This document shows, in pieces, positions 7,100 through 55,947 of a stretch of 64,000 nt of DNA. Positions within the stretch are counted from its first letter, which is position 1, and every line of letters begins with the position of its first letter. The DNA comes from Ferrovibrio sp. (GTDB taxonomy: Bacteria; Pseudomonadota; Alphaproteobacteria; Ferrovibrionales; Ferrovibrionaceae). The notes under the pieces were generated by a model, which did no database searches, was not told the origin of the DNA, and was given only the letters and a program-made list of their open reading frames with translations. Both the position numbers and the translations under genes were made by a program. The DNA lies in assembly GCF_002796975.1 (NCBI RefSeq), contig NZ_PEKV01000004.1, positions 311,561-375,560 of the forward strand, given 5' to 3'.

Positions 7100-7801
7100 T
7101 CACACCCCCAGATACGAGGCCTTCAGGCCCGGATCGTTCAGCAAATCGCTCGCTACACCGGATAGCGCAATCCTGCCGTGTTCCAGCACGAAAGCACGAT
7201 GCGCGATGGCCAGAGACTGCACCACGTTCTGCTCAACCAGCAGGATCGAAAGTCCACCGCGGTTCAGCGCCTGGATCAGGCCAAACATTTCTTCGACCAG
7301 CAGCGGCGACAGGCCGAGCGAGGGCTCGTCGAGCACCAGAAGTTCAGGCTGCGCCATCAGGCCGCGGCCGATCGCCAGCATCTGCTGTTCTCCACCAGAC
7401 AGCGTGCCGGCCAGCTGCGCGATGCGCTCCTTCAAACGCGGAAAGATCGTATAGACTCTTTCGAGGTTCAGACTGCGCTGCTCACGACCGCGCCGGTAGC
7501 TGCCAAGCTCCAGATTCTCCTGCACTGTCAGGTTCGGGAAAACCCGGCGTCCTTCCGGAACCTGGATCAGGCCGGCATCGACGATAGCGTCGCTCCGCAT
7601 GCCGGCGATATTGCGGCCCATAAACTGAATCCGCCCGGCAAATGGCCGGTAGATGCCAGAGAGTGTGTTGTTCAGCGTCGATTTGCCGACGCCATTGGCG
7701 CCCAGCAGTGCGACAATCTCGCCCTTCGCGACATTGAGATCGATGCCGCGCAGCACTTCCACTTCGTTATAGCCAGCATGCAGCCCGCGTATTTCAAGCA
7801 T
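7100..7801 (-). CDS. livF: Branched-chain amino acid-type ABC transporter ATP-binding protein (LivF)
   Basis: LLGANGVGKSTLNNTLSG, LSGGEQQMLAIGRGLMAQPELLVLDEPSLGL. Confidence 0.93.
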   Translation of the reverse strand: MLEIRGLHAGYNEVEVLRGIDLNVAKGEIVALLGANGVGKSTLNNTLSGIYRPFAGRIQFMGRNIAGMRSDAIVDAGLIQVPEGRRVFPNLTVQENLELGSYRRGREQRSLNLERVYTIFPRLKERIAQLAGTLSGGEQQMLAIGRGLMAQPELLVLDEPSLGLSPLLVEEMFGLIQALNRGGLSILLVEQNVVQSLAIAHRAFVLEHGRIALSGVASDLLNDPGLKASYLGV

Positions 7802-8546
7802 GCTGTGCCTCTATGCGGGCCTGCTGCATGCGTTCGGCCGCGCCATGGCCAAGATAGGCCTCGATCACCTGCGGATCGGCGGCAATCTGCGCTGGCGTTC
7901 CGCTGGCGATCAGGCTGCCGTTGTTCAGCACCCAGGCATGATCCGACAGGTTCATCACCGCGCGCATCACATGCTCGATCAGGAGAATGGTGACGCCGGA
8001 CTGGCGGATGCCGCGGATGATCGGGATGATCTCATCAATCTCGGCCGGATTGAGACCGGCCATCACCTCGTCCAGCAACAGCAGCTTGGGATCGGTCGCC
8101 AATGCTTTGGCGAGTTCCAGCCGCTTGCGGCCGGCTACCGTGAGCGCCGCCGCCGGTTTATCGAGCTGCGGACCGAGGCCGACGCGCTGCGCCACGGCTT
8201 CGGCGTGACCGAGTGCCGCCTTACGACCGGCACGATGCAGATGGGCGCCGACGGCGATATTCTCGCGAACCGTCAGCCCGGCGAAGGGCTGCACGATCTG
8301 GAAGGTGCGTGCGACACCCAGCATACAGATCCGCTCCGGGGTCAGGCCAAGCAGCGAAGCGCCTTCGAAACGAATGTCGCCCTCATCCGGTCGGTGGAAG
8401 CCGGAGATCTGCGCGAAGATGGTGGTCTTACCGGCGCCGTTCGGCCCGATCAGCGCCGAGATGCTGCCAGGCTGTACAGTGAAGCTGACCTTGTTGCTCG
8501 CAACCAGCCCACCGAAGCGTTTGGAGAGGTTGGCGACCTCAAGCAT
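7794..8546 (-). CDS. livG: Branched-chain amino acid-type ABC transporter ATP-binding protein (LivG)
   Basis: LIGPNGAGKTTIFAQISG; LLLLDEVMAGLNPAEIDEI; LivG-type C-terminus. Confidence 0.92.
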   Translation of the reverse strand: MLEVANLSKRFGGLVASNKVSFTVQPGSISALIGPNGAGKTTIFAQISGFHRPDEGDIRFEGASLLGLTPERICMLGVARTFQIVQPFAGLTVRENIAVGAHLHRAGRKAALGHAEAVAQRVGLGPQLDKPAAALTVAGRKRLELAKALATDPKLLLLDEVMAGLNPAEIDEIIPIIRGIRQSGVTILLIEHVMRAVMNLSDHAWVLNNGSLIASGTPAQIAADPQVIEAYLGHGAAERMQQARIEAQHA

Positions 8547-12632: not shown

Positions 12633-13385
12633 TCACCGGATCGGCTGCAATCCGCCGCCGAGGAAAAGCTGTGCAATACGCGGATCGGCGCGGATGTTTG
12701 CCGCAGTATCTTCGATTCGCGTCTGCCCCAGTTCCAGTACCAAGCCGTAATCCGACATCTGCAGCGCCTGTTTGGCATTCTGCTCGATGAGCAGGATCGT
12801 GACGCCTTTGCCGCGCAATGCTTTCAGAATGCCGAACACCTCCTGCACCATCAGCGGCGACAGGCCGATGGACGGTTCGTCGATCAGGATCAGCTTCGGA
12901 TCGAGCAGCAGGCCGCGTGCCACTTCCAGCAGCTTCTGCTGCCCGCCCGACAAGGTAGAAGCCTGACTGTCCGCCTTCTCGGCCAGGATGGGAAAGCCCT
13001 TCAGCATCGCGGCGACACGATCGGGCAGACCTGATTGGTCCTTCAGCGCGACGGCGCCGAGCTCAAGATTGTGCCGCACCGACAGCTCGGGGAAGATATT
13101 GCGACCCTGCGGCACATAGCAAACGCCAGCATCCAGCATCATGCGCGGCGTATGGCCGGTGACATCCCTGCCCTCGAACAGGATGCGGCCAGACCGCAAT
13201 GGTAGCAGGCCGAAGATTGCCTTGAACATGGTCGACTTGCCGGCGCCATTCGGTCCGATCACCGTGGTGATCCTGCCGCGGCGGATACTGGTCGTGGTGC
13301 CATTCAGGATGGTCATCTTGCCGTAGCCGCCCACCACGGCATCAAGTTGCAGGATGCTATCACTCATCGTTGGCCTGGTGTCCAA
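12633..13385 (-). CDS. livF: LivF-type ABC ATP-binding protein (second operon)
   Basis: VIGPNGAGKSTMFKAIFG, LSGGQQKLLEVARGLLLDPKLILIDEPSIGLSP. Confidence 0.93.
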   Translation of the reverse strand: MDTRPTMSDSILQLDAVVGGYGKMTILNGTTTSIRRGRITTVIGPNGAGKSTMFKAIFGLLPLRSGRILFEGRDVTGHTPRMMLDAGVCYVPQGRNIFPELSVRHNLELGAVALKDQSGLPDRVAAMLKGFPILAEKADSQASTLSGGQQKLLEVARGLLLDPKLILIDEPSIGLSPLMVQEVFGILKALRGKGVTILLIEQNAKQALQMSDYGLVLELGQTRIEDTAANIRADPRIAQLFLGGGLQPIR

Positions 13386-14118
13386 GATAAGCCTCGATCA
13401 CATCCGGGTTGCTGCGGATTTCGGCCGGCTTGCCGGCCGCGATCAGGCGGCCTTCAGCCAACACAAGAATCCGCGTGCACAGCGACATGACAAATTCCAT
13501 ATTATGCTCGATCACCACGAAGGTGGCGCGGGTTTCGGCGTTGATCGCCTGCAACCGCTCCTTCAGGTTGGCCAGCATGGTCAGATTGACGCCGCCGGCC
13601 GGTTCATCCAGCAGCACCAGCCGCGGCCCAGCCATGAAAGCCATGGCGGCATCGAGCAGCTTCTGCTGGCCATAGGACAAACTACCGGCTTTTTCCTCAG
13701 CCAGATGACCAAGCCGAAAGAATTCGATCATGCGGTTAGCGTCTGGCGTCAGCCCGGCATCGCGCGGCCCGAACAGGCGCTTCAACCGCGAGCCACGATG
13801 CTCCTGTGCGGCCAGGATCAGATTTTCACGCACGCTGAGCTCCGGAAAGACCTGCAGCAATTGAAAAGTCCGGCTGACACCACGGCGATTGAGTTCGGAC
13901 GGGCGCAGACCAGTCACCACGTCGCCGTCGACCCGTACCTCGCCCTCATCCGGCACCAGTTGACCGAGGATGCAATTGAACAGCGTCGACTTCCCCGATC
14001 CGTTGGGTCCGATGATGCCGAGGATTTCGCCTTCCTGCACATCGAAACTGACATTGCGTACAGCCTGCAGACCACCGAAAGACCGAGACAGTCTTTTCAC
14101 ATCCAGAACGCTGGTCAT
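13360..14118 (-). CDS. livG: LivG-type ABC ATP-binding protein (second operon)
   Basis: IIGPNGSGKSTLFNCILG, LSYGQQKLLDAAMAFMAGPRLVLLDEPAGGVN. Confidence 0.93.
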   Translation of the reverse strand: MTSVLDVKRLSRSFGGLQAVRNVSFDVQEGEILGIIGPNGSGKSTLFNCILGQLVPDEGEVRVDGDVVTGLRPSELNRRGVSRTFQLLQVFPELSVRENLILAAQEHRGSRLKRLFGPRDAGLTPDANRMIEFFRLGHLAEEKAGSLSYGQQKLLDAAMAFMAGPRLVLLDEPAGGVNLTMLANLKERLQAINAETRATFVVIEHNMEFVMSLCTRILVLAEGRLIAAGKPAEIRSNPDVIEAYLGHQANDE

Positions 14119-41375: not shown

Positions 41376-42175
41376 GGCAAAGCCTCCATCAAGTCGAAGA
41401 CGGGACCGTCGCAGCAGACCCGCTTGTGCACGATCTCGCCGTTCCTGTTGAAATCCAGCACGCAGCAGAAGCACATGCCGAGACCGCAGGCCATCTGCTG
41501 CTCCATCGCCACCTGACCTGGCAGATCGAATTCCCGGGCCAGACGCTGCTGCACCCGCATCAGGCGGCTGGACCCGCAGGTCAGAAAGGCATCGCAGCCT
41601 CCGGCAGCGATCAGGCCGCGCAGCAGGCGCTCGACATGGGCCGGGCCGCTGGTGCCTTCGGAATCGGTCACAGTCAGAACTTCGGCGCCGAAGCCGCGGA
41701 AGACATCGACCGAGACCAGCAGTTCCGGTCGCCGGGCGCTCAGCACGGCCGTGACCTTGATGCCCGCCGCCTGCGCGGCACGCGCGAGCGGCGCCAGAGT
41801 GGCCAGCCCGGCACCGCGGCCGACCACGACGATGCTCTTCCATGCGGGATCGAGCGTGAAGCCAACACCCAGCGGCCCGAAGATATCGAGACGATCGCCG
41901 GTCCCGAGCCCAGCCAGGCCGCGGGTGCCGGCACCCGCCACCTTGTACAGGAAGCTGACGGTCCCGGCAGCCGGATCGGCGTCGTAGACGCTCATCGGGC
42001 GCCGCAGATACGGCTCTTCACCGGGTGGCTGCGGGCAGAGCAACTGGAAGAACTGCCCTGGGTGAGCCGACGATGCAGGACCGGAGCAGCGCACGACCAG
42101 ATGCTTGTACTCGGCGTTCAGCCAGTCGTTGCGGACAACATCCGCCAGCCGTTCCGCCGTGCAGATCGCGTTCAT
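41372..42175 (-). CDS. pyrK: Dihydroorotate dehydrogenase electron transfer subunit (PyrK-type, FAD and 2Fe-2S)
   Basis: Start trimmed to MNAICTAERLADVVRNDWLNAEY; 2Fe-2S ligands in MACGLGMCFCCVLDFNRNGEIVHKRVCCDGPVF. Confidence 0.93.
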   Translation of the reverse strand: MNAICTAERLADVVRNDWLNAEYKHLVVRCSGPASSAHPGQFFQLLCPQPPGEEPYLRRPMSVYDADPAAGTVSFLYKVAGAGTRGLAGLGTGDRLDIFGPLGVGFTLDPAWKSIVVVGRGAGLATLAPLARAAQAAGIKVTAVLSARRPELLVSVDVFRGFGAEVLTVTDSEGTSGPAHVERLLRGLIAAGGCDAFLTCGSSRLMRVQQRLAREFDLPGQVAMEQQMACGLGMCFCCVLDFNRNGEIVHKRVCCDGPVFDLMEALP

Positions 42176-43395
42176 TCCAGCTCTGCTCCGCGACGTTCGG
42201 GGATCAGCAGCCACAGCGCCACGATATCGATGACATAGAGAACGGCCAGCAGCGCGATAGCAATCTCGAAGCCATAGGCCAGCGCCACCGCACCCACGGT
42301 AAGCGGACCGAAGCCGCCCACCGCGCGGCCGATATTGAACAGCACATTCTGCGCCGTGGCGCGCGCGGCGGTGGGATAAAGCTCGCTCATCAGCGCGCCA
42401 TAGCCGCCAAGCATGCCGTTGACGAAGAAGCCCATCACCGGACCAGCCACCAAAAGCGCGCTGGCGTCGGTCAGCCTGGAATAGACCACGACCATGACGG
42501 CGGCGCCGACCATATACATCAGGAAAGTGGGGCGACGGCCGAGGCGATCCGCGATCTGACCGAAAGCCCAGATGCCGACGGCCATGCCGACAATGGTGGT
42601 CGCCGTCCACAGCGCCGACTGGGTCAGGCCATAGCCGAACCGCGAAGACAGATAGTTCGGCAACCAGATCATTACGCCGTAGTAGCCGAAATTCTGCACC
42701 GAGCAGAGCACGACCAGACCGATACTGGATTTTGTGGTCTCCCAATCCTTCACCAGCAGGCGCAGCGGCGAAGCGCCACCCGACTTCCTGACGTTGGCGA
42801 CAAAGACATCGGGTTCATGCAGCGCACGGCGGATGATGTAGGCAGCCACGGCCGGGAAGACGCCGACCAGGAACATGCCGCGCCAGCCGATTTCCGGCAG
42901 CAGTACCGGAGTTGCCAGCGCCGCCGCCAGCACGCCGACCTGCCAGCCGATACCGACATAGGACGACGCACGCGCGCGCTTCGACGCCGGCCAGGCTTCC
43001 GCCACCAGCGCCATGCCGATGCCGAATTCACCGCCCAGCCCGAGGCCGGCGATGGTGCGGTAAATCAGCAAATCCCAGTAGCCTTGGGCGAAGGCGCACA
43101 GACCGGTGAAGACGGCAAACAGTATGATCGTCCAGGTCAGCACGCGCACACGACCCAGGCGATCGGACAGCATGCCGAACAGCAGACCGCCAACGACCGC
43201 GCCGCCCAGCGTCGCCGTCACCAGCGATGCCGCCTGCGCCGTATTGAGCTGCAGGTCGGCCGAGATCGCCTTCAGCATGAAGCCGAGGATCAGCAGGTCG
43301 AAGCCGTCCATGGCATAGCCCAGCGCAGAACCCCAAAGCGCTTTCCTGGCCGCGGGCCCAACACTGTCGGAAACAGAATAATCAGCCGTCGTCAT
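42172..43395 (-). CDS. MFS transporter (aromatic acid/sialate-like AAHS type); candidate orotate/dihydroorotate permease
   Basis: GSALGYAMDGFDLLILGFMLKAISADLQLNTAQAASLVTATLGGAVVGGLLFGMLSDRLGRVR. Confidence 0.92.
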   Translation of the reverse strand: MTTADYSVSDSVGPAARKALWGSALGYAMDGFDLLILGFMLKAISADLQLNTAQAASLVTATLGGAVVGGLLFGMLSDRLGRVRVLTWTIILFAVFTGLCAFAQGYWDLLIYRTIAGLGLGGEFGIGMALVAEAWPASKRARASSYVGIGWQVGVLAAALATPVLLPEIGWRGMFLVGVFPAVAAYIIRRALHEPDVFVANVRKSGGASPLRLLVKDWETTKSSIGLVVLCSVQNFGYYGVMIWLPNYLSSRFGYGLTQSALWTATTIVGMAVGIWAFGQIADRLGRRPTFLMYMVGAAVMVVVYSRLTDASALLVAGPVMGFFVNGMLGGYGALMSELYPTAARATAQNVLFNIGRAVGGFGPLTVGAVALAYGFEIAIALLAVLYVIDIVALWLLIPERRGAELE

Positions 43396-43434
43396 CTCGC
43401 ACGCTCCCCTTGCGATTGGATTTCTGGTTGTTGC

Positions 43435-43459
43435 CGAACCGGCGTTCGACAAAAACGAA
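43435..43459. promoter_or_regulatory. Candidate LysR operator region: CGAAC-N4-GTTCG overlapping TTCG-N7-CGAA (contains T-N11-A)
   Basis: cgaaccggcgttcgacaaaaacgaa read directly between divergent MFS and LysR genes. Confidence 0.4.
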
Positions 43460-43548
43460 GTAAGGATTATTTGCTTGCCTTGTTATTCGCGATAGCAGAA
43501 GTATTCGAGCGTCGCGTTGCCGTTTCGGCATCAGGCGATCGGAGCAGC

Positions 43549-44511
43549 ATGATGAGCACCCGGTTTCGCATTCACGATTCAGCCATTCTCTATTTTGATG
43601 CCGTGCGCAGCGCCGCATCGATCCGCGGTGCTGCGCGCCGGCTGAATGTTGCCTCATCGGCCGTGAACCGGCAGATCCTGAATCTGGAAACCGAGTTGGG
43701 CACGCGCCTGTTTGATCGTCTGCCGGGCGGCCTGCGCCTGACTGCCGCCGGTGAGATCCTGGCCGAGCATGTCACGACGGTACTGCAGGATGCTGAGCGG
43801 ACGCGCTCCGCGCTGGATGCACTGGCAGGATTGCGCACCGGCCATATCGAGATCGCAACCCTTGAAGGCCTGTGCCAGGACATCGTCCCGTCCGCCATCA
43901 AGATACTGGGACTGCAAGGGTCCCGCATTACAGTCGGTGTCGATGTGATGCCGACCGCGGATATCCCCGATGCCGTCGCCGCCGGCAACGCACACCTCGG
44001 TCTGGCCTTTGAGGTGCGGCCACGCGCCGATTTGCAGAAACTGGCCTCCGTACGTCTGCAACTGGGTGTCGTCGTGCTGGCGAAGTCACCGATGGCCAGG
44101 CAGGCTGCATTGACGCTACGCGACTGCAGCGATCACCAGCTGATCTTGCCGCGCGCCAACTTCGCCAATCGCGAACAGCTGATATCGACTCTGAGCGAGT
44201 CCGATGTCCGCGGCCGCATGCTGGTTGATGCCGGCTCCATCACCTTGATGAAGCAGCTCGTGCTAAACGGTGTCGGCATCTCCTTCATGACCCGCATCGG
44301 CATCGAGGATGAGCTGAAAACGGGACGGCTGGTCCACATCCCGTTGTTTGCCGGCCGCAAGCCGATTGTCAGCGAATTGGGATTGTATGCGCGCCGTGGT
44401 TCTGCCCGCCCGATTGCCGTCGAAGCTTTTGCGAATATCCTGACAGGGTTGATGGCCACATCGGAGAAGGCGGACCGTGCCCGGCGTAACACTGTTTCGA
44501 AGCGCGGGTAG
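43549..44511 (+). CDS. LysR family transcriptional regulator
   Basis: C-terminal part of ORF 42025..44511: MMSTRFRIHDSAILYFDAVRSAASIRGAARRLNVASSAVNRQILNLETELGTRLFDRLPGGLRLTAAG. Confidence 0.92.
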   Translation: MMSTRFRIHDSAILYFDAVRSAASIRGAARRLNVASSAVNRQILNLETELGTRLFDRLPGGLRLTAAGEILAEHVTTVLQDAERTRSALDALAGLRTGHIEIATLEGLCQDIVPSAIKILGLQGSRITVGVDVMPTADIPDAVAAGNAHLGLAFEVRPRADLQKLASVRLQLGVVVLAKSPMARQAALTLRDCSDHQLILPRANFANREQLISTLSESDVRGRMLVDAGSITLMKQLVLNGVGISFMTRIGIEDELKTGRLVHIPLFAGRKPIVSELGLYARRGSARPIAVEAFANILTGLMATSEKADRARRNTVSKRG

Positions 44512-45077: not shown

Positions 45078-45896
45078 TCAGTAGGCTGTACTCTTTCCGA
45101 CATTTTTCGTATCCGGCAAACAGAATTCGCCACAGGCAGAGCCAAAGGAAGAAACTATCGTCTTCGCGCCACTTTCCAGGACTCGAGCGTCCGAGCTTAC
45201 CGTTAATAAGGAAAACCCGCGTCGCGCCATGCGAGCTGCATAGATGGAAGACCCACAATGCAACCCACATGGCAATCCCGCGCTAATACAGTGGGCCAGG
45301 ATGTCATCGAGAACCTTGAGAATCTCCGGTTCCTCACGATCAAATCCAGGTGCAAAACCGTAGGACAATGAAAGATCGGCGGGGCCGACATAAATCCCGC
45401 CCAGTCCCGGCACCGCCAGGATAGATTCAATACTCTCCACTGCAGCACGAGTCTCGATCATCGCAATAGGTAACACCTCGGCATTTGCCGTATCAGCATA
45501 AGTGTCGCCGCGAGCCAAACGCGCACGAGTCGGACCGAAGCTGCGGGTACCTTGTGGCGGATACAAACAGGCTGATACCAGCCGGCGCGCATCTTCTGCA
45601 GACTCTATCATCGGTGCAATGATACCTAGCGCCCCGGCATCCAGCGCCCGCATGATGATGGCTTCATCCAGCCAGGGCACGCGCACCAGCGGCGCTGCGC
45701 CCGCCTTCTCGATGATCGGCAGAAGTGTCAGCAGGTCGGCATAATCAGCTGTACCGTGCTGCATATCGATCGTCAGGCTATCCCAGCCGGCTTGCGCCAT
45801 GGCTTCCGCTGCAAGCGGCGATGGCAATGCAATCCAGCCGTTCAGGACTTTTCCGCCGATGCCCCAGATTTGGCGAAGCGGATTCCGGAACGCCAC
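45078..45896 (-). CDS. HpcH/HpaI family class II aldolase
   Basis: LNGWIALPSPLAAEAMAQAGWDSLTIDMQHGTADY; APMIESAEDARRLVSACLYPPQGTRSFGPTRA; MIETRAAVESIESILAVPGLGGIYVGPADLSLS. Confidence 0.93.
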   Translation of the reverse strand: MAFRNPLRQIWGIGGKVLNGWIALPSPLAAEAMAQAGWDSLTIDMQHGTADYADLLTLLPIIEKAGAAPLVRVPWLDEAIIMRALDAGALGIIAPMIESAEDARRLVSACLYPPQGTRSFGPTRARLARGDTYADTANAEVLPIAMIETRAAVESIESILAVPGLGGIYVGPADLSLSYGFAPGFDREEPEILKVLDDILAHCISAGLPCGLHCGSSIYAARMARRGFSLLTVSSDARVLESGAKTIVSSFGSACGEFCLPDTKNVGKSTAY

Positions 45897-45899
45897 TGT

Positions 45900-47339
45900 T
45901 CAGGCCCAGGTCATGTTGGTGAGCTTGATATTCTGATAATCCTGAATCGCCTGACGCCCACCCTCGCGTCCCATGCCGGAATGGCCGATGCCGCCGAAGG
46001 GCGCTTCTGCATGTGCCACCAGGAAAGAGTTGATGCCGACCATACCGGCACGCAAGCCGGCCGATAGTTTCTCGGCCTTCGAGGAACTGCCGGTAAAGGC
46101 ATAAGCCGCCAGGCCATAGGGCGTGCTGTTGGCGCGCGCGATGGCGTCATCGAGACTATGGAAGGTCGCGACAGGGGCCACCGGACCGAAAGGCTCTTCG
46201 ATCATGATGCGGGCATCATCCGACACGTCGGAGAGCACCGTCGGCTCGAGGAAGAAGCCCTTGTTGCGTCCATCGGGCCGCCGGCCGCCAGCACGAATCT
46301 TCGCGCCCCGTTGCACGGCATCGGCGATCAGACCCTCGACCTTGTTGCGGCCCGAGGCCAGGGTGAGCGGTCCCATCGTGGTGGTGGGATCGCGGCTGTC
46401 GCCCAGCTTCAGGGCGCGTGCTTCGGCCACCATGCGATCGACGAACCGCTCTGCCACGCTTTCCTCGACATAGAAGCGGTTCGGCGCGATGCAGACCTGA
46501 CCCGCATTGCGGAACTTGAAGGTGGCGCATTGCACAGCCGCCGCATCGACATCCGCATCGGCGCAGATAACGACAGGCGAATGACCACCCAACTCCATCG
46601 AACAGCGCTTCACGGTTTCCGCAGCCTGCGCCAGCAGCATCTTACCGACCTGCGTGGAACCGGTCAGCGAGATTTTACGCACCTCTTCGGCCGCCATCAG
46701 GCTTGGCACGATGTCATTGGCCCGACCGGTCAGAACCTGTACCACGCCAGCCGGTACACCGGCGGCCACACAGGCCTGCGCGATCAATGTCGTCGTCATC
46801 GGCACCTGTTCCGACGGCCGCACGATCACCGGACAGCCAGCAGCCAATGCCGGCGCGATCTTGCGTACCGGCAGGTTGACCGGGAAATTCCAGGCCGAGA
46901 AAGCTGCGACGATACCGACGGGCTCCGGCGTGACGATCAGACGGCCGCCCTGACGCGAACGGATGGTTTCACCAAACAGGCGCTCGGCCTCGCCGGCAAA
47001 CCAGTCGAATTGCTCGATGGCGGCATTCACCTCACCTTCGGATTGCGAAATCGGGCGGCCGATCTCAAGCGACAGCGCCCTGGCAATGGCCGGACGACGC
47101 GCTTCCATCTCGCGTGCAATGCGCCGCAGTACCTTGCCGCGCTCCCAGCCGTGCACCGCCGACCAGGTCGCCAGTGCCTTGCTCGCATGGCCCAGTGCCT
47201 CGGCCGCCTCGGCAGGACCGCAGGCCGGCTGCAGCCAGAGAACCTCTTCCGTGCAGGGATCCACAACCGGCAGCGACGGACTCCGGGTTTCCTTGCGAAA
47301 TTCGCCGCCGATCAGCGCGAGGGGTTGGTCAACCGACAT
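45900..47339 (-). CDS. NAD(P)-dependent aldehyde dehydrogenase (succinate-semialdehyde dehydrogenase-like)
   Basis: FSAWNFPVNLPVRKIAPALAAGCPVIVRPSEQVPMT; SLTGSTQVGK; CSMELGGHSPVVICADADVD; FRNAGQVCIAPNRFYV. Confidence 0.93.
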   Translation of the reverse strand: MSVDQPLALIGGEFRKETRSPSLPVVDPCTEEVLWLQPACGPAEAAEALGHASKALATWSAVHGWERGKVLRRIAREMEARRPAIARALSLEIGRPISQSEGEVNAAIEQFDWFAGEAERLFGETIRSRQGGRLIVTPEPVGIVAAFSAWNFPVNLPVRKIAPALAAGCPVIVRPSEQVPMTTTLIAQACVAAGVPAGVVQVLTGRANDIVPSLMAAEEVRKISLTGSTQVGKMLLAQAAETVKRCSMELGGHSPVVICADADVDAAAVQCATFKFRNAGQVCIAPNRFYVEESVAERFVDRMVAEARALKLGDSRDPTTTMGPLTLASGRNKVEGLIADAVQRGAKIRAGGRRPDGRNKGFFLEPTVLSDVSDDARIMIEEPFGPVAPVATFHSLDDAIARANSTPYGLAAYAFTGSSSKAEKLSAGLRAGMVGINSFLVAHAEAPFGGIGHSGMGREGGRQAIQDYQNIKLTNMTWA

Positions 47340-47391
47340 GGCTGGTTTCCTTTGGACGTTGAGTTTGAGAAAAAGACGACGACCGGACCGG

Positions 47392-48213
47392 TCACTGCGA
47401 CGCAGTGACGCCGCCATCGATGTAGACGACCTGCCCGGTCATATAGCTGCCGGCCGCCGAGGCGAAGGTGATGATCTGGCCAACCACTTCGATGGGTTCG
47501 CCGATACGGCCCAGCGGATTGCGCTCAAGAATGAAATTCTTGAAGGCCGGCCGATCCAGATGCGGACGGATTCTGTCCGACTGAATGAAAGTAGGCGCCA
47601 CACCGTTGACGGTGATGTTGTGGGATGCGAGTTCCATGGCATGCTGCTTCACCAGCATGACCAGCGCGCCCTTGGTGGCGCAGTAGGCCGAATAGCCCCT
47701 GCCCCGCAAAGCGAGCTGCGAACGGACGGACAGCAGATGAATCTGACGACCGCCCCGACCGCGCCGGATCTGGTCCCGTGCGACCGCCTGACCCAGGAAC
47801 ATGGCGGAGCGCATATTGGTGGCGTAGACCTCGTCGAAGGCTTCCGGAGTCACTTCGAGGATGGTCTGCTCTCGCTGGATACCAACGCAGTTCACCAGTA
47901 CATCGACGCCGCCCATATACTGTATGGCTCGCTCCACCGCAGCGGAAATCGACTGTTCCTTGCGGGCATCGAGCGCCAGACCATGCGCCGCGCCACCAGT
48001 GTCCACAATGCGGCCAGCCAGACTTTCCGCCTTCGACAGGTTGGGGCCGGCGATACAGACCGTTGCCCCCAGCCGTGCCATGGCGACCGAAATGGCTTCG
48101 CCAATTGCACCATAGCCGCCGGGAATGAATACACGCAGATCCCGAATGCTGAACAGGCTGTCAATGCGCTCCAGCTCGATCTGCGGCGTAAGACTTTCGG
48201 GCTGGATGTTCAT
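47392..48213 (-). CDS. SDR family oxidoreductase
   Basis: GGYGAIGEAISVAMARLGATVCIAG; YSAYCATKGALVMLVKQHAMELASHNITVNGVAPTFIQSD; GSYMTGQVVYIDGGVT. Confidence 0.93.
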   Translation of the reverse strand: MNIQPESLTPQIELERIDSLFSIRDLRVFIPGGYGAIGEAISVAMARLGATVCIAGPNLSKAESLAGRIVDTGGAAHGLALDARKEQSISAAVERAIQYMGGVDVLVNCVGIQREQTILEVTPEAFDEVYATNMRSAMFLGQAVARDQIRRGRGGRQIHLLSVRSQLALRGRGYSAYCATKGALVMLVKQHAMELASHNITVNGVAPTFIQSDRIRPHLDRPAFKNFILERNPLGRIGEPIEVVGQIITFASAAGSYMTGQVVYIDGGVTASQ

Positions 48214-49217
48214 GGATGCACCTCCACTCCAGCGGCTCGGTAGACGCTCTCCATCAGTTCCAGTGTCTCCAGATTGTCGAGCCTGTCGGTTTCAAACGGG
48301 GTGCCATCGCGGATGCCGGCGATGAATGCGCGGATGGCAATATCGAAACATTCCTGGTAGCGGCCGAGCAGATCGACGGCCTCGACCGTTTCGGCTTCCT
48401 GGCCGACCAGAAATATACGGTTCAGTTCCATGACAATGGTGCCGCGCGTGCCAATCAGTTCAAGACGGTCGCCATGCAACTGCGGATAGCCGGGCGCGCA
48501 GAGGCTGCCATCGGCCGTGGCGATCAGCCCGTCTTCGCCTTCCATGAGAATGGCGGCGGTATCCTCGCCGGGCAGGCCCTGCGCCAGACGGCCCAGGCGG
48601 GCCGACACCACGCGTAGCGGCCCGACCAGGCAGCGCAACACATCGAGATGATGGATCATCGTCTCGAATACGAGATTGCGGGGAAACCACTTCAGGTACG
48701 GTTGCCGTTCGATCAGGAAAGGCACGGTACCGTCGCGCTCGCACAGCCCAGATCCGCGGCAGGAAATCGCGGCATGCCGGATCCTGCCGATGCGGCCTTC
48801 ATCCACCCAGCGCCGCACCGTCATATAATGCGGGCGAAAGCGGTAATTCTCATGCACCATGAAACGGACGCGCTCACCGATCTCGGCAACCAGCGACTTT
48901 GCTTCGGCGACCGTGGGACACATCGGCTTCTGCAGCATGACATGAACGCCGAAGCTGGCGGCCAGCCGCGTCATCGGCGCATGCGCGCCTACCGAAGCCG
49001 CGATATCGACGGCGTCAAAGCCGCCATGGGAAAACATGTCGGTGGCCTGGGTATAGATTCGCGAGACACCGAATTCCTTGGCCCGCGCCTCTGCCTTGGC
49101 GCGGTCGGTATCGCAGACCGCCACGATGTCCACCCCGGCTGCCATCCATGCACGGAGATGATACAGGCTGATGAGCCCACATCCGATCAGCGCAACGCGC
49201 AGCTTGCCCTCAGCCAT
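48210..49217 (-). CDS. Gfo/Idh/MocA family oxidoreductase
   Basis: Start trimmed to MAEGKLRVALIGCGLISLYHLRAWMAAGVDIVAVCDTDRAKAEA; HVMLQKPMCPTVAEAKSLV. Confidence 0.92.
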   Translation of the reverse strand: MAEGKLRVALIGCGLISLYHLRAWMAAGVDIVAVCDTDRAKAEARAKEFGVSRIYTQATDMFSHGGFDAVDIAASVGAHAPMTRLAASFGVHVMLQKPMCPTVAEAKSLVAEIGERVRFMVHENYRFRPHYMTVRRWVDEGRIGRIRHAAISCRGSGLCERDGTVPFLIERQPYLKWFPRNLVFETMIHHLDVLRCLVGPLRVVSARLGRLAQGLPGEDTAAILMEGEDGLIATADGSLCAPGYPQLHGDRLELIGTRGTIVMELNRIFLVGQEAETVEAVDLLGRYQECFDIAIRAFIAGIRDGTPFETDRLDNLETLELMESVYRAAGVEVHP

Positions 49218-49527
49218 GGCGCACCTCGAACCAGCCATAGCCGTAATGCCAGGTGCTGCCCGCATCCGGGCCGGTGCGCAGCGTGTGCCGCATACCGGCG
49301 GGAATGCGCACCAGATCGCCAGGACGGCACAAGGCGCGCGCGCCGCCGACCTCGATTTCCACCTGTCCTGCCGCCACGACGACGAACTCGTCATGGGCAT
49401 GTACGAAATCAGCCCAGACCTGCCCAGGCGGATCCCGATAGGTATCGAAGGTAAAGCCGGGAAAATCCGCTTTCACGGCGTCGGTCGAAACCGGCACGGC
49501 GTAGAGACTGGGCTGGAACAGGCTCAT
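49210..49527 (-). CDS. Small cupin-domain protein
   Basis: DFVHAHDEFVVVAAGQVEIEVGGARALCRPGDLVRIPAGMRHTLRTG. Confidence 0.9.
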   Translation of the reverse strand: MSLFQPSLYAVPVSTDAVKADFPGFTFDTYRDPPGQVWADFVHAHDEFVVVAAGQVEIEVGGARALCRPGDLVRIPAGMRHTLRTGPDAGSTWHYGYGWFEVRHG

Positions 49528-50147
49528 GCCGCGCGATCCGCCAGCAGGCCGCCGAGATAGCTGCGCGCCGGCTCGAATGCCATCAGGGCGTCGAAATCGG
49601 GGATCGACGTCACGACGCCCTTCTGCACAAAAATGAACTGCTCGCAGATTTCTTGCAGGATTTCGAGATGAAACTTCTCGTTCGGATGAACGCAGAGAAA
49701 CACCAACCGCCCTTCTGCGCGCAGGCGGCGGAAGAAATCGAGCATGAAGCCGATATAACCGTCCTGCGTGTTGAACTGCGGCTCGTCAAACAGATGCACC
49801 ATGGGGTAATCCGATCCGGCCGGCTGCATCATGGCATTCGGCATCCAGGAACGGAAATGCCGCACCTGGTAGGACTGGTGATAATGGATGGCGAGGCGGT
49901 CGCGCTGATCGGTGCGCACGCGATGGATATTGCGGCCCAGCACCTTCACCTCGCCCGAGGTCGGCGCATTCGAACCGGTGATCAGTTCGAACAGGGTGGT
50001 CTTGCCCGAGCCATTCGGCCCCATCATGCCGACCACGGCCGGTCGTTCGATCCCGAAATCGGCGGTCAGGCGGAAAGTCGGAGTCCGGTTCAGAACACCC
50101 TTGGTGTAGACCTTTTCCAGCGCAGTCACTTCAAGCATCGCCGCCAT
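49524..50147 (-). CDS. Divergent short ABC ATPase lacking LSGGQ signature and helical subdomain
   Basis: Walker A GMMGPNGSGKTTLFELITG; Walker B VHLFDEP; H-loop VHPNEK; only about 25 aa between YHQSYQVRHF and Walker B. Confidence 0.85.
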   Translation of the reverse strand: MAAMLEVTALEKVYTKGVLNRTPTFRLTADFGIERPAVVGMMGPNGSGKTTLFELITGSNAPTSGEVKVLGRNIHRVRTDQRDRLAIHYHQSYQVRHFRSWMPNAMMQPAGSDYPMVHLFDEPQFNTQDGYIGFMLDFFRRLRAEGRLVFLCVHPNEKFHLEILQEICEQFIFVQKGVVTSIPDFDALMAFEPARSYLGGLLADRAA

Positions 50148-50150
50148 CGC

Positions 50151-50846
50151 TCACACTCCGATCATCCGGCGACGCAGCACCGGATTCTCCAGCAGCTCCT
50201 GCGCACGACCCTCATATGCGATGCGACCGCGATCCATCACATAGGCGCGATCTGACACCTCTAGCGCCGCCAATGCATTCTGCTCAACCACGAGCACGGA
50301 AATCCCTTCATCCCGCAGGCGACGGATCGTGCGCATCACGCCCTGCACGATATTGGGCGCAAGCCCTTGGCTCGGCTCATCGAACAACACCAACCCGGGC
50401 GATCCCAGCAGTGCGCGCGAGATGGCCACCATCTGCAATTCGCCACCAGACATGTTCTCGCATTCCCGCCGCATCAGATGCTCAAGCGCCGAGAAGATCC
50501 CGAACATCTCGTCCTGGCACCAGGCGCGGAACCGGGTCCTGCGGGTGCCGAGGCGCAGGTTGCGGGCACCGGTCAGCGTCGGGAACACCCGGCGGTCGTC
50601 CGGCACCCAGGAAATCCCCAGCCGCGAGATACGATGCGTCGGCATCTGCGTGATGTCATGGTCGTCGAAACGGATATGGCCGCTGCGCGGCGGCGACAGG
50701 CCGAGAATGGAACGGATGGTAGTGGTCTTGCCCGCACCATTGGGGCCAAGCAGCGCGACAACCTCGCCCGGCGCCACATCGAGCGAGACACCGAACAGCG
50801 CTTGGGTCTCACCATAGAAGGTTTCGATGCCGGAGATACTGAGCAT
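50151..50846 (-). CDS. livF: LivF-type ABC ATP-binding protein (third operon)
   Basis: Start trimmed to MLSISGIETFYGETQALFGVSLDV; LLGPNGAGKTTTIRSILG; MSGGELQMVAISRALLGSPGLVLFDEPSQGLAP. Confidence 0.92.
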   Translation of the reverse strand: MLSISGIETFYGETQALFGVSLDVAPGEVVALLGPNGAGKTTTIRSILGLSPPRSGHIRFDDHDITQMPTHRISRLGISWVPDDRRVFPTLTGARNLRLGTRRTRFRAWCQDEMFGIFSALEHLMRRECENMSGGELQMVAISRALLGSPGLVLFDEPSQGLAPNIVQGVMRTIRRLRDEGISVLVVEQNALAALEVSDRAYVMDRGRIAYEGRAQELLENPVLRRRMIGV

Positions 50847-51589
50847 CAGGCCACCTCGCCCAGAGCCGACCGTGCGACCCATTTGTTGGCCTTGAGCCCC
50901 GCCGGTGTGCCCTCGACAATGACCTGGCCCCAATGCACCACCGATATGGTATCGGCGAGTTCGAAGAGGAACCGCATGTCATGTTCGATGACACAGATGG
51001 TGTAGTGCTGGCGCAGCTTCTGGATCAGTCGTATCAGATTCTGCGTCGCCTGGGCGCCAAGACCCGCCGTGGGTTCATCCAGAAACAGGATGCGGGGTTC
51101 GGCTGCCAGCGCGACGGCGATCTCGAGTGCGCGGCGGTCGCCGTAGCTCAGGTCTTTGGCCTTTTCCCAGGCCCGGCCAGCAAGGCCGACCTGATCGAGC
51201 ACTGTAAGGGCCAGATCGACCAGGTGCCGATCGCCGAAGGTTTCCCGCAACGGACTGCCGCTGACGGCGCGGAAAGCCGGCAAAGCGAGCATCACATTCT
51301 CGATCACTACTGCATCGTCGAACAGATTCATCATCTGGAACGATCTGGACACTCCCATCCGCGCAATCACATGCGGCTTCAGCCCGGTGATATCATTGCC
51401 ATCGAAGAGAATGCTGCCGGCGTCCGGTGGATGATGGCCGGTCAGCACATGAAAACAGGTGGTCTTGCCGGCACCATTCGGCCCCATGATGCCGTGGACC
51501 GTGCCGGCCTCGATGGCTAGCGAAATATTCTCCAGCACGACGCGGGCGCCGAACCGCTTCTGGATGCCCCTGGCCTCGAAGAGTGCCAT
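50846..51589 (-). CDS. livG: LivG-type ABC ATP-binding protein (third operon)
   Basis: Start trimmed to MALFEARGIQKRFGARVVLENISLAIEAG; GIMGPNGAGKTTCFHVLTGH; LSYGDRRALEIAVALAAEPRILFLDEPTAGL. Confidence 0.92.
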   Translation of the reverse strand: MALFEARGIQKRFGARVVLENISLAIEAGTVHGIMGPNGAGKTTCFHVLTGHHPPDAGSILFDGNDITGLKPHVIARMGVSRSFQMMNLFDDAVVIENVMLALPAFRAVSGSPLRETFGDRHLVDLALTVLDQVGLAGRAWEKAKDLSYGDRRALEIAVALAAEPRILFLDEPTAGLGAQATQNLIRLIQKLRQHYTICVIEHDMRFLFELADTISVVHWGQVIVEGTPAGLKANKWVARSALGEVA

Positions 51590-52605
51590 CACGCTTTTTC
51601 CGGCTTGACGGTGGAGACTTGCCCGGACGTGCGCCGAAGCAGTACGTGCAGCAGGCCGGCCATGCCTTCCGGCCGCACCATCACCATGATGACGAAGAGC
51701 AGGCCATACCAGAGCAGCCAGGCTTCGGTCAGGCCACCCAGCACATCGCGGGCAACGAAATAGAGGACAACCCCCAGTACCGGGCCCCAGAAACTCACCA
51801 GACCGCCACCGACCAGCACCATCATCACAATGATGCCGGACTGGTGCAGGCTCATCACATCCGGATAGGCACTCTGCTGCGCCATGGAGAATAGCCCGCC
51901 GGCAAGGCCGGCAAAGGCCGCCGAGATCGTGAAGGCCAGCCATTTCCAGCGCCAGACGTCGTAACCGACGAAACGCGCGCGCGTCTCATTCTGCCGGATC
52001 GCCTGCAGCACGCGGCCAACCGGAGCATTCACAACGCGCCACATCAGCAGCACGGCTGCTATCGTGATGGCGGCAACGAACCAATAAAAAACGGCATTGT
52101 CGTTCAGGTCGAAACGCCAGGGACCGATTACCAGGTCCGGACGGGGAATATTCAGCAGGCCGTCTTCACCGCCGGTCAGCCAGTGCAGTTTCATCGCTGA
52201 GAACCAGAAGACCTGGCCAAAGCCGATGGTCAGCAACGCGTAATAGATGCCGCGCCGGTGTGACAGGAAAGCACCGACGACGGCGCCGGCAACAGACGCC
52301 GCTGCAATGGCCGCGAACAGACCGCCCCAAAGACTGATAGCCGCATGATGCTGGAACAGACCGAAGGCATAAGCACCGATCCCGAGATAGGCACCATGGC
52401 CGAAGGAATGCAGGCCGGTATAGCCGAACAGCAGGTTGAATCCCATGGCGAACAGGACCCAGATGGCGATCTCGACGCCGAGATACTGATAGAGGCCAAC
52501 GCGCGCGAGCCAAAACGGCGCAGTTGCCATGACAACAACGAAGATGCCCATGGGCAGCGTGAGCGGCATTTGGCTGCGGGCCGGGATATCGGACAACGTG
52601 ATCAT
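51589..52605 (-). CDS. livM: LivM-type ABC permease (third operon)
   Basis: NLLFGYTGLHSFGHGAYLGIGAYAFGLF; RQNETRARFVGYDVWRWKWLAF. Confidence 0.92.
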   Translation of the reverse strand: MITLSDIPARSQMPLTLPMGIFVVVMATAPFWLARVGLYQYLGVEIAIWVLFAMGFNLLFGYTGLHSFGHGAYLGIGAYAFGLFQHHAAISLWGGLFAAIAAASVAGAVVGAFLSHRRGIYYALLTIGFGQVFWFSAMKLHWLTGGEDGLLNIPRPDLVIGPWRFDLNDNAVFYWFVAAITIAAVLLMWRVVNAPVGRVLQAIRQNETRARFVGYDVWRWKWLAFTISAAFAGLAGGLFSMAQQSAYPDVMSLHQSGIIVMMVLVGGGLVSFWGPVLGVVLYFVARDVLGGLTEAWLLWYGLLFVIMVMVRPEGMAGLLHVLLRRTSGQVSTVKPEKA

Positions 52606-52610
52606 GGCAT

Positions 52611-53531
52611 TCAGTTCTCCAGCGCGCTTCTGCGTCCCAGAAGGCCGCGTGCACGAAAACCGACGATCGCGATCAGCAGGATATACATCGACATCAGCGA
52701 CCAGGCGGGCGCATAGGCGCCGGTGATGCCGGTGGCCAGACCGACCAGGATGGCGGCCGCGACCGCACCCCAGAAACTTCCGACGCCGCCGATCACGATA
52801 ATCAGGAACGCCGGTATCACGACATCGATGCCGAGATGCGGACGCAGACCCCAGATCGGAGCCATGACCATGCCGGCGATGCCTGCCAGCGCGGAGCCGA
52901 AACCGAAGACCAGCAACCGCAGACGGCCGAGGTCGTAGCCGAGCGCACGCACCATTTCGCTGTCATGCGCACCGGCCTTGATGATCGCACCGTATGGTGT
53001 GCGTTCCAGGAACAGCCAGACCATCAGGATGGCAACGATGGCAAAGCCTGCGGCGTAGAATTTATAGGTCGAGAAGATCAACCCACCCATCAGGAAGGCC
53101 CCACTGATCATCTGCGGCACAGGCATACTTTGCTCGCCAGTGCCCCAGACAAGACGGATAGCCTCTTCCACCACGATGGCCGCACCGAAGGTGAGCAACA
53201 GGCCGTAGAGCGGCGCCTTGCCATAGGTGGGACGCAGACAGAGTTCGAGCAGCATGCCAACCGCACCGGCCAGTACGGGCCCCAGCGCAAGCCCGAGGAA
53301 ATAACGGACGTTCAGCGGGAATTCGAGCCACCAGATGCCGAACGGCGTCCCGGCAAACCAGCTGGCGCCGATGGTGGACATGGCCAGATAGGCACCCAGT
53401 GTAAACAGAGAGCCATGTGCCAGATTGATCACCTCCATCACTCCGACAATGAGAGTGAAGCCCAGGGCGATCAGGGCGAACAACAGACCAAGAGTCAGGC
53501 CATTGACGATATGAGGAACAAGACTGGTCAT
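52611..53531 (-). CDS. livH: LivH-type ABC permease (third operon)
   Basis: IVNGLTLGLLFALIALGFTLIVGVMEVINLAHGSLFTLGAYLA; start trimmed to MTSLVPHIVNG. Confidence 0.9.
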   Translation of the reverse strand: MTSLVPHIVNGLTLGLLFALIALGFTLIVGVMEVINLAHGSLFTLGAYLAMSTIGASWFAGTPFGIWWLEFPLNVRYFLGLALGPVLAGAVGMLLELCLRPTYGKAPLYGLLLTFGAAIVVEEAIRLVWGTGEQSMPVPQMISGAFLMGGLIFSTYKFYAAGFAIVAILMVWLFLERTPYGAIIKAGAHDSEMVRALGYDLGRLRLLVFGFGSALAGIAGMVMAPIWGLRPHLGIDVVIPAFLIIVIGGVGSFWGAVAAAILVGLATGITGAYAPAWSLMSMYILLIAIVGFRARGLLGRRSALEN

Positions 53532-53565
53532 GTGCAGCACGTTGTTAACGGCAAAAACAGGCATT

Positions 53566-53615: not shown

Positions 53616-54905
53616 TTATGCGTCGAAAGTCGACGTTGCCTCATAGGTTTCCAGCTTGCAGGCCGGCGCGGAGTCGACGTCCATCACATCCTTCGGTGCA
53701 CTGTTTCCGAGAATCTTGAACATGTCGTCCGGATCCTTTGTGCCGACATTCGCAGTCGCCAGATAGATCGTCTGCTGCATCTGATGTGTGTTGGGATCCA
53801 TCCAAGCGTCATGGTGCTGCATGCGGTCGCGTGCCGAGACCTTTAGATTCTCAAGCTGCTTGATCACCTTGATGTTGTTGGTTGAACCCGCGCGCTCGAT
53901 GGCGGCGAACAATTCGCGCGTCGCCCAGTAGCCGTTATAGAAGACGTTGCCCGGCACTTTCATATAGGTATCGGGATACATGGCCTGGTACCGCTTCACG
54001 AAATCAGAAACACCTGGCAGGTCGAGATTGTAATACCAGGTGGTACCGAACACGCCGAAGAGGTTGTCCAGCGGCAAGCCATACACATCGGCCCAGTCCT
54101 GCTGGTTGTTGATCCAGGCCGGCTTGTCGCCCATTTTCAACTGGGCGATCTGCTGGCGCATCGCTTTCAGGTCGTCCCCGCCAATCGCGGCCGACACCAC
54201 GCCTGGATTGATCTGCTGGATTTTCAGCAGTTGCGATGAGAAATCGCGTGTACCCTGCGGCACCAGGATTTCCTCCACCATCTGCCCGCCATAATTCCTG
54301 AGCAAGTTTTTGGTGGCCGCTGCGGTGGAATGCCCCCAGACATAATCGTTGGTCAACAGCACCCACTTTTTGCCAAATTTCTCGACCGCTGCTTTCACCG
54401 CCGCCTTGGAGAAATTGGAGCCGTTGGCGTCCCAGACGAATTTAACGCGGTGGCAGTTCTGGCCCGCTTCGGACGGCGCGCTTGAATTCGTGTTCAGGTA
54501 GATGACGCCATATTTCTGGGCCACCTGGCTGATGGCATTGGCGACACCGGAATGAATAGCGCCGATCAGGAAGCCGCAATTCTCGCGCGTGATCATGCGT
54601 TCGGCGACGCGGCTACCGGTCGCCGGCGTGGTCTCGGTATCAAGGTGGAAAGTTTCGATCTTGCGGCCGAGCACGCCACCTTTGGCGTTGGCTTCGGCGA
54701 TGGCCATCATCATGCCGCGTCGGTCCTCGGCGCCCGAATTGGCATACTGACCGCTGGCATCGGACGTGATGCCGATCTTGATCGGCTTAGCCGTTGCCTG
54801 GGCATAGACGCGGTTATGCGCCCACGGCCCCATGAAACCCACACCGCCTGCCGCGGCGGCGGCAGACGTCAGTAAACGACGGCGACTGATTTTCGATTGA
54901 GACAT
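53616..54905 (-). CDS. Branched-chain amino acid/amide-type ABC substrate-binding protein (third operon)
   Basis: Tat-like leader SKISRRRLLTSAAAAAGGVGFMG; KPIKIGITSDASGQYANSGAEDRRGMMMAIAEANAKGGVLGRKIE. Confidence 0.92.
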   Translation of the reverse strand: MSQSKISRRRLLTSAAAAAGGVGFMGPWAHNRVYAQATAKPIKIGITSDASGQYANSGAEDRRGMMMAIAEANAKGGVLGRKIETFHLDTETTPATGSRVAERMITRENCGFLIGAIHSGVANAISQVAQKYGVIYLNTNSSAPSEAGQNCHRVKFVWDANGSNFSKAAVKAAVEKFGKKWVLLTNDYVWGHSTAAATKNLLRNYGGQMVEEILVPQGTRDFSSQLLKIQQINPGVVSAAIGGDDLKAMRQQIAQLKMGDKPAWINNQQDWADVYGLPLDNLFGVFGTTWYYNLDLPGVSDFVKRYQAMYPDTYMKVPGNVFYNGYWATRELFAAIERAGSTNNIKVIKQLENLKVSARDRMQHHDAWMDPNTHQMQQTIYLATANVGTKDPDDMFKILGNSAPKDVMDVDSAPACKLETYEATSTFDA

Positions 54906-55077: not shown

Positions 55078-55947
55078 ATGAGCGATTCCGCGACCAACAA
55101 CAGTTCACCGGCTCCCGCCCGGATCATTGCCGATTCAGAGACCTTTGATGGTCTCCGACAGCGAATCCGGGATCGTTTTGCCCGCTTGAGCCCGCATCTG
55201 CAGCGTATTGCCCGTGCCTCGCTGGAAGAGCCCAACGGCTTCGCCCTGAACACCACGGCCAAAATTGCCGCCGACCTGGAAATCCAGCCCTCCACCCTAA
55301 TCCGCTTTGCCAAGGAATTCGGCTATTCCGGTTTTTCGGATTTGCAGCGGGTATTTCGGCAGCGCCTGATCGAGGGCGAACCGACAGTGCGGGAGCGGGT
55401 CTATTCGGAGGAAACAGCGCGACCGGCACCGCCGAATATTGGCGATCTGCTGAAGACCTGTGTCACCGCCCATGTCGCCGCGCTGAACGACTTGCTGAAA
55501 AATTGCGATACGGCGAATCTCGCCAGGGCCGTGGAAATGCTGCGGGATGCGCGGCATGTCTATATCGCCGGCCTGCGCCGCTCACGCCCGATCGCTGCCT
55601 ATCTCGCCTATGCGCTGACGCGTTCGGAACGCGCCAGCAGCCTGTTGGATTTTGCTGGTGGGATGGCGGGGCCACAGATTGCGACCATTGCCCCGGACGA
55701 TGTTCTGGTCGCGATCGCCTTCCCGCCCTATTCGCGGCCCGTCGTTGACATCGTGCTCGATGCTTATGTGAGCGGTCGCAGAGTTCTCGTCATCACGGAT
55801 GGCCCGGACAGTCCGCTCGCGAAGAACGCTCACCTGTCACTATACGTGGATGCCGGTGCCGCTTCTGCATTCCAACCCATTTCCGGTGCCATTGGCCTGA
55901 TGCAAACCCTTATTACCGCGCTGAACTGGGTCCCTAAATCTGGCTAA
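55078..55947 (+). CDS. MurR/RpiR family regulator (HTH_6 + SIS)
   Basis: LSPHLQRIARASLEEPNGFALNTTAKIAADLEIQPSTLIRFAKEFGYSGFSDLQRVFRQRL; SIS-like HVYIAGLRRSRPIAAYLAYALTR. Confidence 0.93.
   Translation: MSDSATNNSSPAPARIIADSETFDGLRQRIRDRFARLSPHLQRIARASLEEPNGFALNTTAKIAADLEIQPSTLIRFAKEFGYSGFSDLQRVFRQRLIEGEPTVRERVYSEETARPAPPNIGDLLKTCVTAHVAALNDLLKNCDTANLARAVEMLRDARHVYIAGLRRSRPIAAYLAYALTRSERASSLLDFAGGMAGPQIATIAPDDVLVAIAFPPYSRPVVDIVLDAYVSGRRVLVITDGPDSPLAKNAHLSLYVDAGAASAFQPISGAIGLMQTLITALNWVPKSG

Follow-up and report, generated by a model that had tools for sequence, protein, structure and literature searches.

X207, a signature-less ABC-derived protein encoded directly after livF in a Liv-type importer operon of Ferrovibrio

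The window analysed here is a stretch of 64,000 nucleotides from Ferrovibrio sp. (contig NZ_PEKV01000004.1, positions 311,561 to 375,560). We identified within it an operon in the order binding protein, LivH, LivM, LivG, LivF, X207, cupin, oxidoreductase, short-chain dehydrogenase, aldehyde dehydrogenase and aldolase-like protein, the genes of which overlap or almost abut. X207 is our working name for the product of the ORF at 49524-50147 on the minus strand. The features of the locus, with the evidence for each, are as follows.

55078..55947, plus strand: RpiR-family regulator with a SIS domain, divergent, in front of the importer genes (family search)
53616..54905, minus strand: periplasmic substrate-binding protein, Peripla_BP_6; urea-type models matched weakly, below their cut-offs (family search)
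52611..53534, minus strand: LivH-type permease (position and sequence; conserved in relatives)
51589..52605, minus strand: LivM-type permease (position and sequence; conserved in relatives)
50846..51592, minus strand: LivG-type NBD with Walker A, Q-loop Gln (SRSFQ), LSYGD signature, FLDEP and H-loop His (IEHD) (family search, motifs)
50151..50846, minus strand: LivF-type NBD with A-loop, Walker A, MSGGE signature, LFDEP, Asp at the Q-loop position (VPDD) and Gln at the H-loop position (VEQN) (family search, motifs)
49524..50147, minus strand: X207, signature-less ABC nucleotide-binding core of 207 aa, sixth importer component (sequence, Pfam, alignment, AlphaFold2)
49210..49527, minus strand: small cupin protein, its start overlapping the X207 stop (family search)
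48210..49208, minus strand: Gfo/Idh/MocA oxidoreductase, start inferred, as the listed ORF extends to 49400 (family search)
47392..48213, minus strand: short-chain dehydrogenase/reductase (family search)
45900..47345, minus strand: aldehyde dehydrogenase, start inferred (family search)
45078..45896, minus strand: HpcH/HpaI-type aldolase-like protein, named by sequence appearance and also found downstream in the closest relatives (sequence)

The operon holds the full HAAT/Liv importer set of binding protein, LivH, LivM, LivG and LivF. A preliminary description of this DNA, made from the sequence, had stated that LivF and LivG are complete and that X207 is a third nucleotide-binding protein. Both statements are borne out: since LivF and LivG are complete with intact motifs, X207 does not replace either. 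An importer expected to need two ATP-using subunits thus carries a cut-down third. The catabolic neighbours hint at a substrate that is oxidised: a polyol, a sugar acid or a hydroxy acid. Two more adjacent NBD pairs lie in the window at about 7589-8546 and 13158-14055 (minus strand), which probably belong to other ABC importers, and a search of the organism's own genome found no second copy of X207 near them. At 42025-44511 (plus strand) there is a long ORF with a C-terminal part that resembles a LysR-type regulator; in this GC-rich DNA the frame probably extends spuriously over its first part.

The X207 frame is intact from its ATG, which follows the TGA of LivF after 3 nt and has a GGAG close upstream, to a stop that overlaps the start of the cupin gene (49527). 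It encodes Walker A (GPNGSGKTT, residues 43-51), a Q-loop-like YHQSYQVRHF (89-98), Walker B with its Glu (VHLFDEP, 117-123) and an H-loop (VHPNEK, 153-158), all four as previously described, and keeps every residue of its own half-site: A-loop Tyr14, Walker A, Gln91, Asp121-Glu122, a D-loop-like Asp129 and His154. The shortened interval between Q-loop and Walker B that had been remarked on is also real, as Gln91 and Asp121 stand 30 residues apart, against 73 in LivF (D86 to D159) and 86 in LivG (Q86 to D172) of the same operon, and no LSGGQ-like motif occurs in this stretch of X207. The helical subdomain is missing both from the sequence and from an AlphaFold2 model. Pfam ABC_tran (PF00005), in the HMM search that the preliminary description proposed, matched X207 at E 1.6e-12 over profile positions 5-67 of 137 only, the first half. 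For the C-terminal 108 residues (100-207) Pfam gave no match at E up to 1, and the NCBIfam NBD models gave weak ones, E 0.005 or worse. Since the profile match ends at position 67 of 137 and the linker has no LSGGQ, X207 is, judging by its sequence, an ABC-derived protein and not a canonical ABC NBD.

In a tree of X207, LivF, LivG and the other NBDs of the genome, X207 sequences were monophyletic (support 1.0) on a long branch outside both the LivF and the LivG clades, their exact placement not being resolved. X207 is not an orthologue of LivF or LivG, as it is separate in the tree, has no full-length match and occurs beside both genes; a recent internal deletion of livG or livF is ruled out by the long separate clade. 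No specific model of the family was found in Pfam or NCBIfam, and a search for solved relatives gave canonical NBDs only, matched over the first 100 residues. The open-access literature, outside which most subscription papers lie, held nothing relevant on signature-less ABC ATPases or third NBDs. The best reading is that X207 is a signature-less accessory ABC-derived NBD of a Liv-type importer, of which we found no earlier description in the sources searched.

Scanning one genome per species turned up 192 places that encode relatives of X207, and the best 80 were fetched. These best 80 of 192 are 61-85% identical and come from Alphaproteobacteria, Burkholderiales, a few gamma- and delta-type Proteobacteria and one Binatia MAG; no plasmid-borne relatives were found at E 1e-25. 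Aligned members have 200-219 aa, all 85 aligned relatives have the signature deletion in common, and in every one the linker is about 18 residues long without LSGGQ. More than 60 columns are invariant in 54 aligned sequences, including every half-site residue and nearly all of the segment HLFDEPQFNTQDGYIGFML, and the half-site residues are invariant across 54 to 85 homologues. A profile of the C-terminal region scored members at E 1e-41 or better and other NBDs at E 1e-6 or worse, a gap by which the family appears well bounded. The family profile matched 5 of 399 sampled genomes of the phylum, the Ferrovibrio genome included, so that the family seems uncommon, yet taxonomically broad. We propose to recognise its members by an NBD core, a deleted signature subdomain, the motifs HQSYQ and HLFDEPQFN(T)QDGYIGFML, and a position directly after livF, all of which are found in X207 of the window.

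Pairwise omega values were 0.03-0.26 for X207, 0.02-0.14 for LivF and 0.01-0.15 for LivG of the same operons, which indicates that X207 is under purifying selection, with constraint like that on LivF and LivG. The preliminary description had argued against simple decay, and had looked to orthologues beside livF for the same deletion and for relaxed selection. The deletion was found in 79 of 79 such loci among the best 80 of 192 relatives, relaxed selection was absent, and the argument against decay stands on the intact frame, the common deletion and the purifying selection. Decay, a pseudogene or a sequencing artefact is ruled out by the deletion common to the family, the conservation and omega; its strict conservation across many bacteria marks X207 as a real component. 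It is very unlikely, in our estimate, that X207 is an assembly chaperone of LivF and LivG or an inert relic. Its place at the end of the transporter genes would suit either role, but conservation and omega exclude a relic, and it is hard to see why a passive chaperone should have a catalytic Glu and His that are invariant.

X207 lies immediately 3' of livF in every one of the 79 loci with enough flank (again among the best 80 of 192), while other parts of the neighbourhood vary. An RpiR-like gene is present in 64 of 74 related loci; in L070 the regulator is of LacI type and in L031 of GntR type, and X207 is kept in both. The downstream enzymes differ between clades while X207 stays, which rules out the catabolic enzymes as its main partner. 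In Burkholderiales the binding protein lies on the opposite strand in a separate divergent unit and X207 stays with livM-livG-livF. In a sample of 289 genomes of the class, six, the Ferrovibrio genome among them, have a LivF of at least 63% identity, and in all six X207 directly follows livF; the sole LivF homologue of this sample at 48% identity (L112) is without X207. Given constant linkage to livF while regulators and enzymes vary, X207 is most simply taken as a part of the transporter, and more narrowly as one that goes with its NBD genes.

This linkage also bears on two other explanations. X207 may be a nucleotide sensor or signalling subunit through which the transporter communicates with gene regulation or with the catabolic enzymes, in the manner of MalK with MalT, and the frequent RpiR-like gene and a mirror-tree partial correlation of 0.26 between X207 and RpiR are consistent with this. 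However, the regulator class and the enzymes switch while X207 stays, and we regard such a role as improbable. More improbable still is that X207 has been repurposed as a pathway enzyme, such as a P-loop kinase for the imported compound, and no longer works with the NBDs. In favour of this, no kinase is among the annotated conserved parts of the operon, RpiR regulators often sense phosphosugars, and the residues that follow Walker B, QFNTQDGYIGFML, do not resemble the NBD models searched. Against this, the NBD A-loop, Q-loop, Walker B Glu and H-loop are all invariant, the AlphaFold2 model has no extra lid domain, and X207 stays beside NBD genes, not enzymes.

Structure prediction, also proposed in the preliminary description, confirmed an NBD core without the helical subdomain: AlphaFold2 with 54 homologues gave a confident model of X207 (pLDDT 90.1, pTM 0.86). 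Foldseek against the PDB matched this model to canonical NBDs only, with long gaps and TMq of about 0.6-0.7. In a Desulfosarcina MAG (L047:7524-7988) livF and X207 are separated by a 465-nt spacer, against an overlap or a few nucleotides at other loci. The two genes are in frame there, and from them we modelled LivF, spacer and X207 as one chain, reading through the 155-codon spacer and using 29 paired read-through homologues. The pTM was 0.60, with about 160 of 593 residues in a disordered linker, against roughly 0.35 for two unplaced NBD-sized domains, a value that is a rough estimate and not a computed control. The best two-domain matches were ATP-bound tandem NBDs (8wdb, TMq 0.56; 7zk5, 0.55), followed by 0.49 for 8wd9, the apo state of the 8wdb transporter; EttA scored 0.28-0.32 in crystals with ADP and 0.49-0.50 when ribosome-bound, and single NBDs 0.38 at most. 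This suggests, with weak to moderate force, that LivF and X207 form a sandwich-like pair of the closed, ATP-bound type, an interface drawn from fold matches and not from PAE or coordinates, and from one pair modelled without a control by a method that may sandwich any two NBDs. The preliminary description had left the choice between an NBD partner or regulator and a repurposed ATPase; synteny, the invariant half-site and the tandem model appear to favour the former.

LivF of the X207 clade has invariant residues in the Q-loop (W83, D86, D87), just before the signature (E133) and in the D-loop (Q163), as well as an invariant Trp112. Its Q-loop position is Asp (VPDD), whereas other LivF proteins have Glu or Gln. 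Mirror-tree partial correlations with X207 were 0.30-0.37 for LivG, 0.10-0.24 for LivF and about 0.10 or less for the permeases, a signal that points weakly to LivG more than to LivF.

An ABC ATP site is formed jointly by two NBDs, one supplying its half-site and the other its signature. The LSGGQ that would serve its partner's ATP is gone from X207, and so is the helical subdomain, where the coupling helix is held. Its job is probably control of the pump, and we tentatively put forward, as a possible explanation held at less than even confidence, that it is an accessory NBD-derived importer subunit acting as an ATP-gated brake or reserve, with LivF as the partner for which it and LivG compete. 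X207 in its ATP state would dock on the LivF signature (LSGGE/MSGGE) in LivG's place. As X207 keeps its half-site but has no signature, the pair would have one complete, hydrolysable ATP site, made of the X207 half-site and the LivF signature, and the LivF half-site would be left uncapped. Without the subdomain that receives the coupling helix, X207 could not couple to LivH/LivM and the complex with LivF would be idle. One ATP site with no membrane coupling would suit a regulator: competition with LivG for LivF may tune the assembly or activity of the pump, and hydrolysis through the invariant Glu and His of X207 may release LivF. We infer the binding, the competition with LivG and the sign of the effect from the invariant half-site, the purifying selection, the constant livF linkage, the tandem model, the LivF invariants and the mirror-tree correlations.

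The main rival to a decoy or brake is that X207 is an obligatory positive subunit that enters the NBD dimer at some step of the cycle, for example by giving a consensus half-site while that of LivF is degenerate, so that the importer would be dead without it. The unbroken linkage to livF, constraint equal to that on LivF and LivG, and the Asp at the Q-loop position of LivF are all compatible with such a subunit. However, X207 without a helical subdomain cannot make the canonical coupling-helix contact, and LivG already supplies a complete half-site; we consider this role unlikely, though less so than that of a sensor. An activator, a chaperone or a permanent third subunit would leave identical sequence traces. 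Returning to the brake, its wider form is rather doubtful, namely a widespread class of ABC importer in which LivG, LivF and a signature-less half-site NBD share two places, and ATP-dependent exchange with LivG switches the pump off and on.

X207 resembles the HAAT NBDs LivF and LivG in its operon, A-loop, Walker A/B, Q-loop, H-loop and core fold, and differs from them in lacking the signature and helical subdomain, in a unique segment after Walker B and in its separate clade (support 1.0). Heterodimeric ABC transporters such as TAP and BmrCD have one degenerate ATP site, in which one signature is defective. They share with X207 the asymmetry of ATP sites, but their signature is mutated and not removed with the subdomain, and the protein concerned belongs to a pair of NBDs, where X207 is a third. 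Extra domains or subunits are known to tune the NBDs of regulated importers, as in MalK-EIIA, in the trans-inhibition of MetNI and ModBC and in MlaB acting on MlaF, but those regulators are not signature-less NBDs. PhnK and PhnL of C-P lyase form a dual ABC dimer (PMC9947105) and are likewise ABC subunits working outside canonical membrane coupling. PhnK, however, has the full size of an NBD, about 250 residues in the Foldseek matches, and C-P lyase is no transporter.

ABC proteins are generally regarded as unable to do without the LSGGQ motif and the helical subdomain. The strictly conserved X207 family has shed both, keeps a full catalytic half-site and always accompanies livF, and offers a clean natural test of what a single half-site can do. 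It makes the operon a six-component Liv-type system for which general family libraries hold no specific model, and it suggests a new way of importer regulation. If the brake is real, it would be a built-in NBD decoy, and none such was found described for any ABC transporter in the open-access literature searched.

Several loci were irregular. A 462-aa open frame in one genome (G013) was considered as a gene fusion, which was not demonstrated, and stop-free read-through of GC-rich neighbouring sequence is likely. L048, L049, L050, L054, L058 and other Burkholderiales have the split operon with RpiR between the units of the two strands; in some of these split loci a LivH fragment lies beside the binding protein at a contig edge, and L050 has a gene resembling 2-hydroxy-3-oxopropionate reductase nearby. 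At L044:7372-8606 X207 is intact beside a livF ORF that is 5'-truncated, with Walker A altered to GPNGASKTT; livG, livM and livH were not found at this locus, and the upstream genes resemble a LysR regulator and a TRAP-type transporter, so that it is either a remnant or a chimeric MAG contig. At L064:6550-7986 (Photobacterium sp. JCM 19050) both livG and livF are broken into two ORFs apiece, through either draft errors or decay, and X207 is intact.
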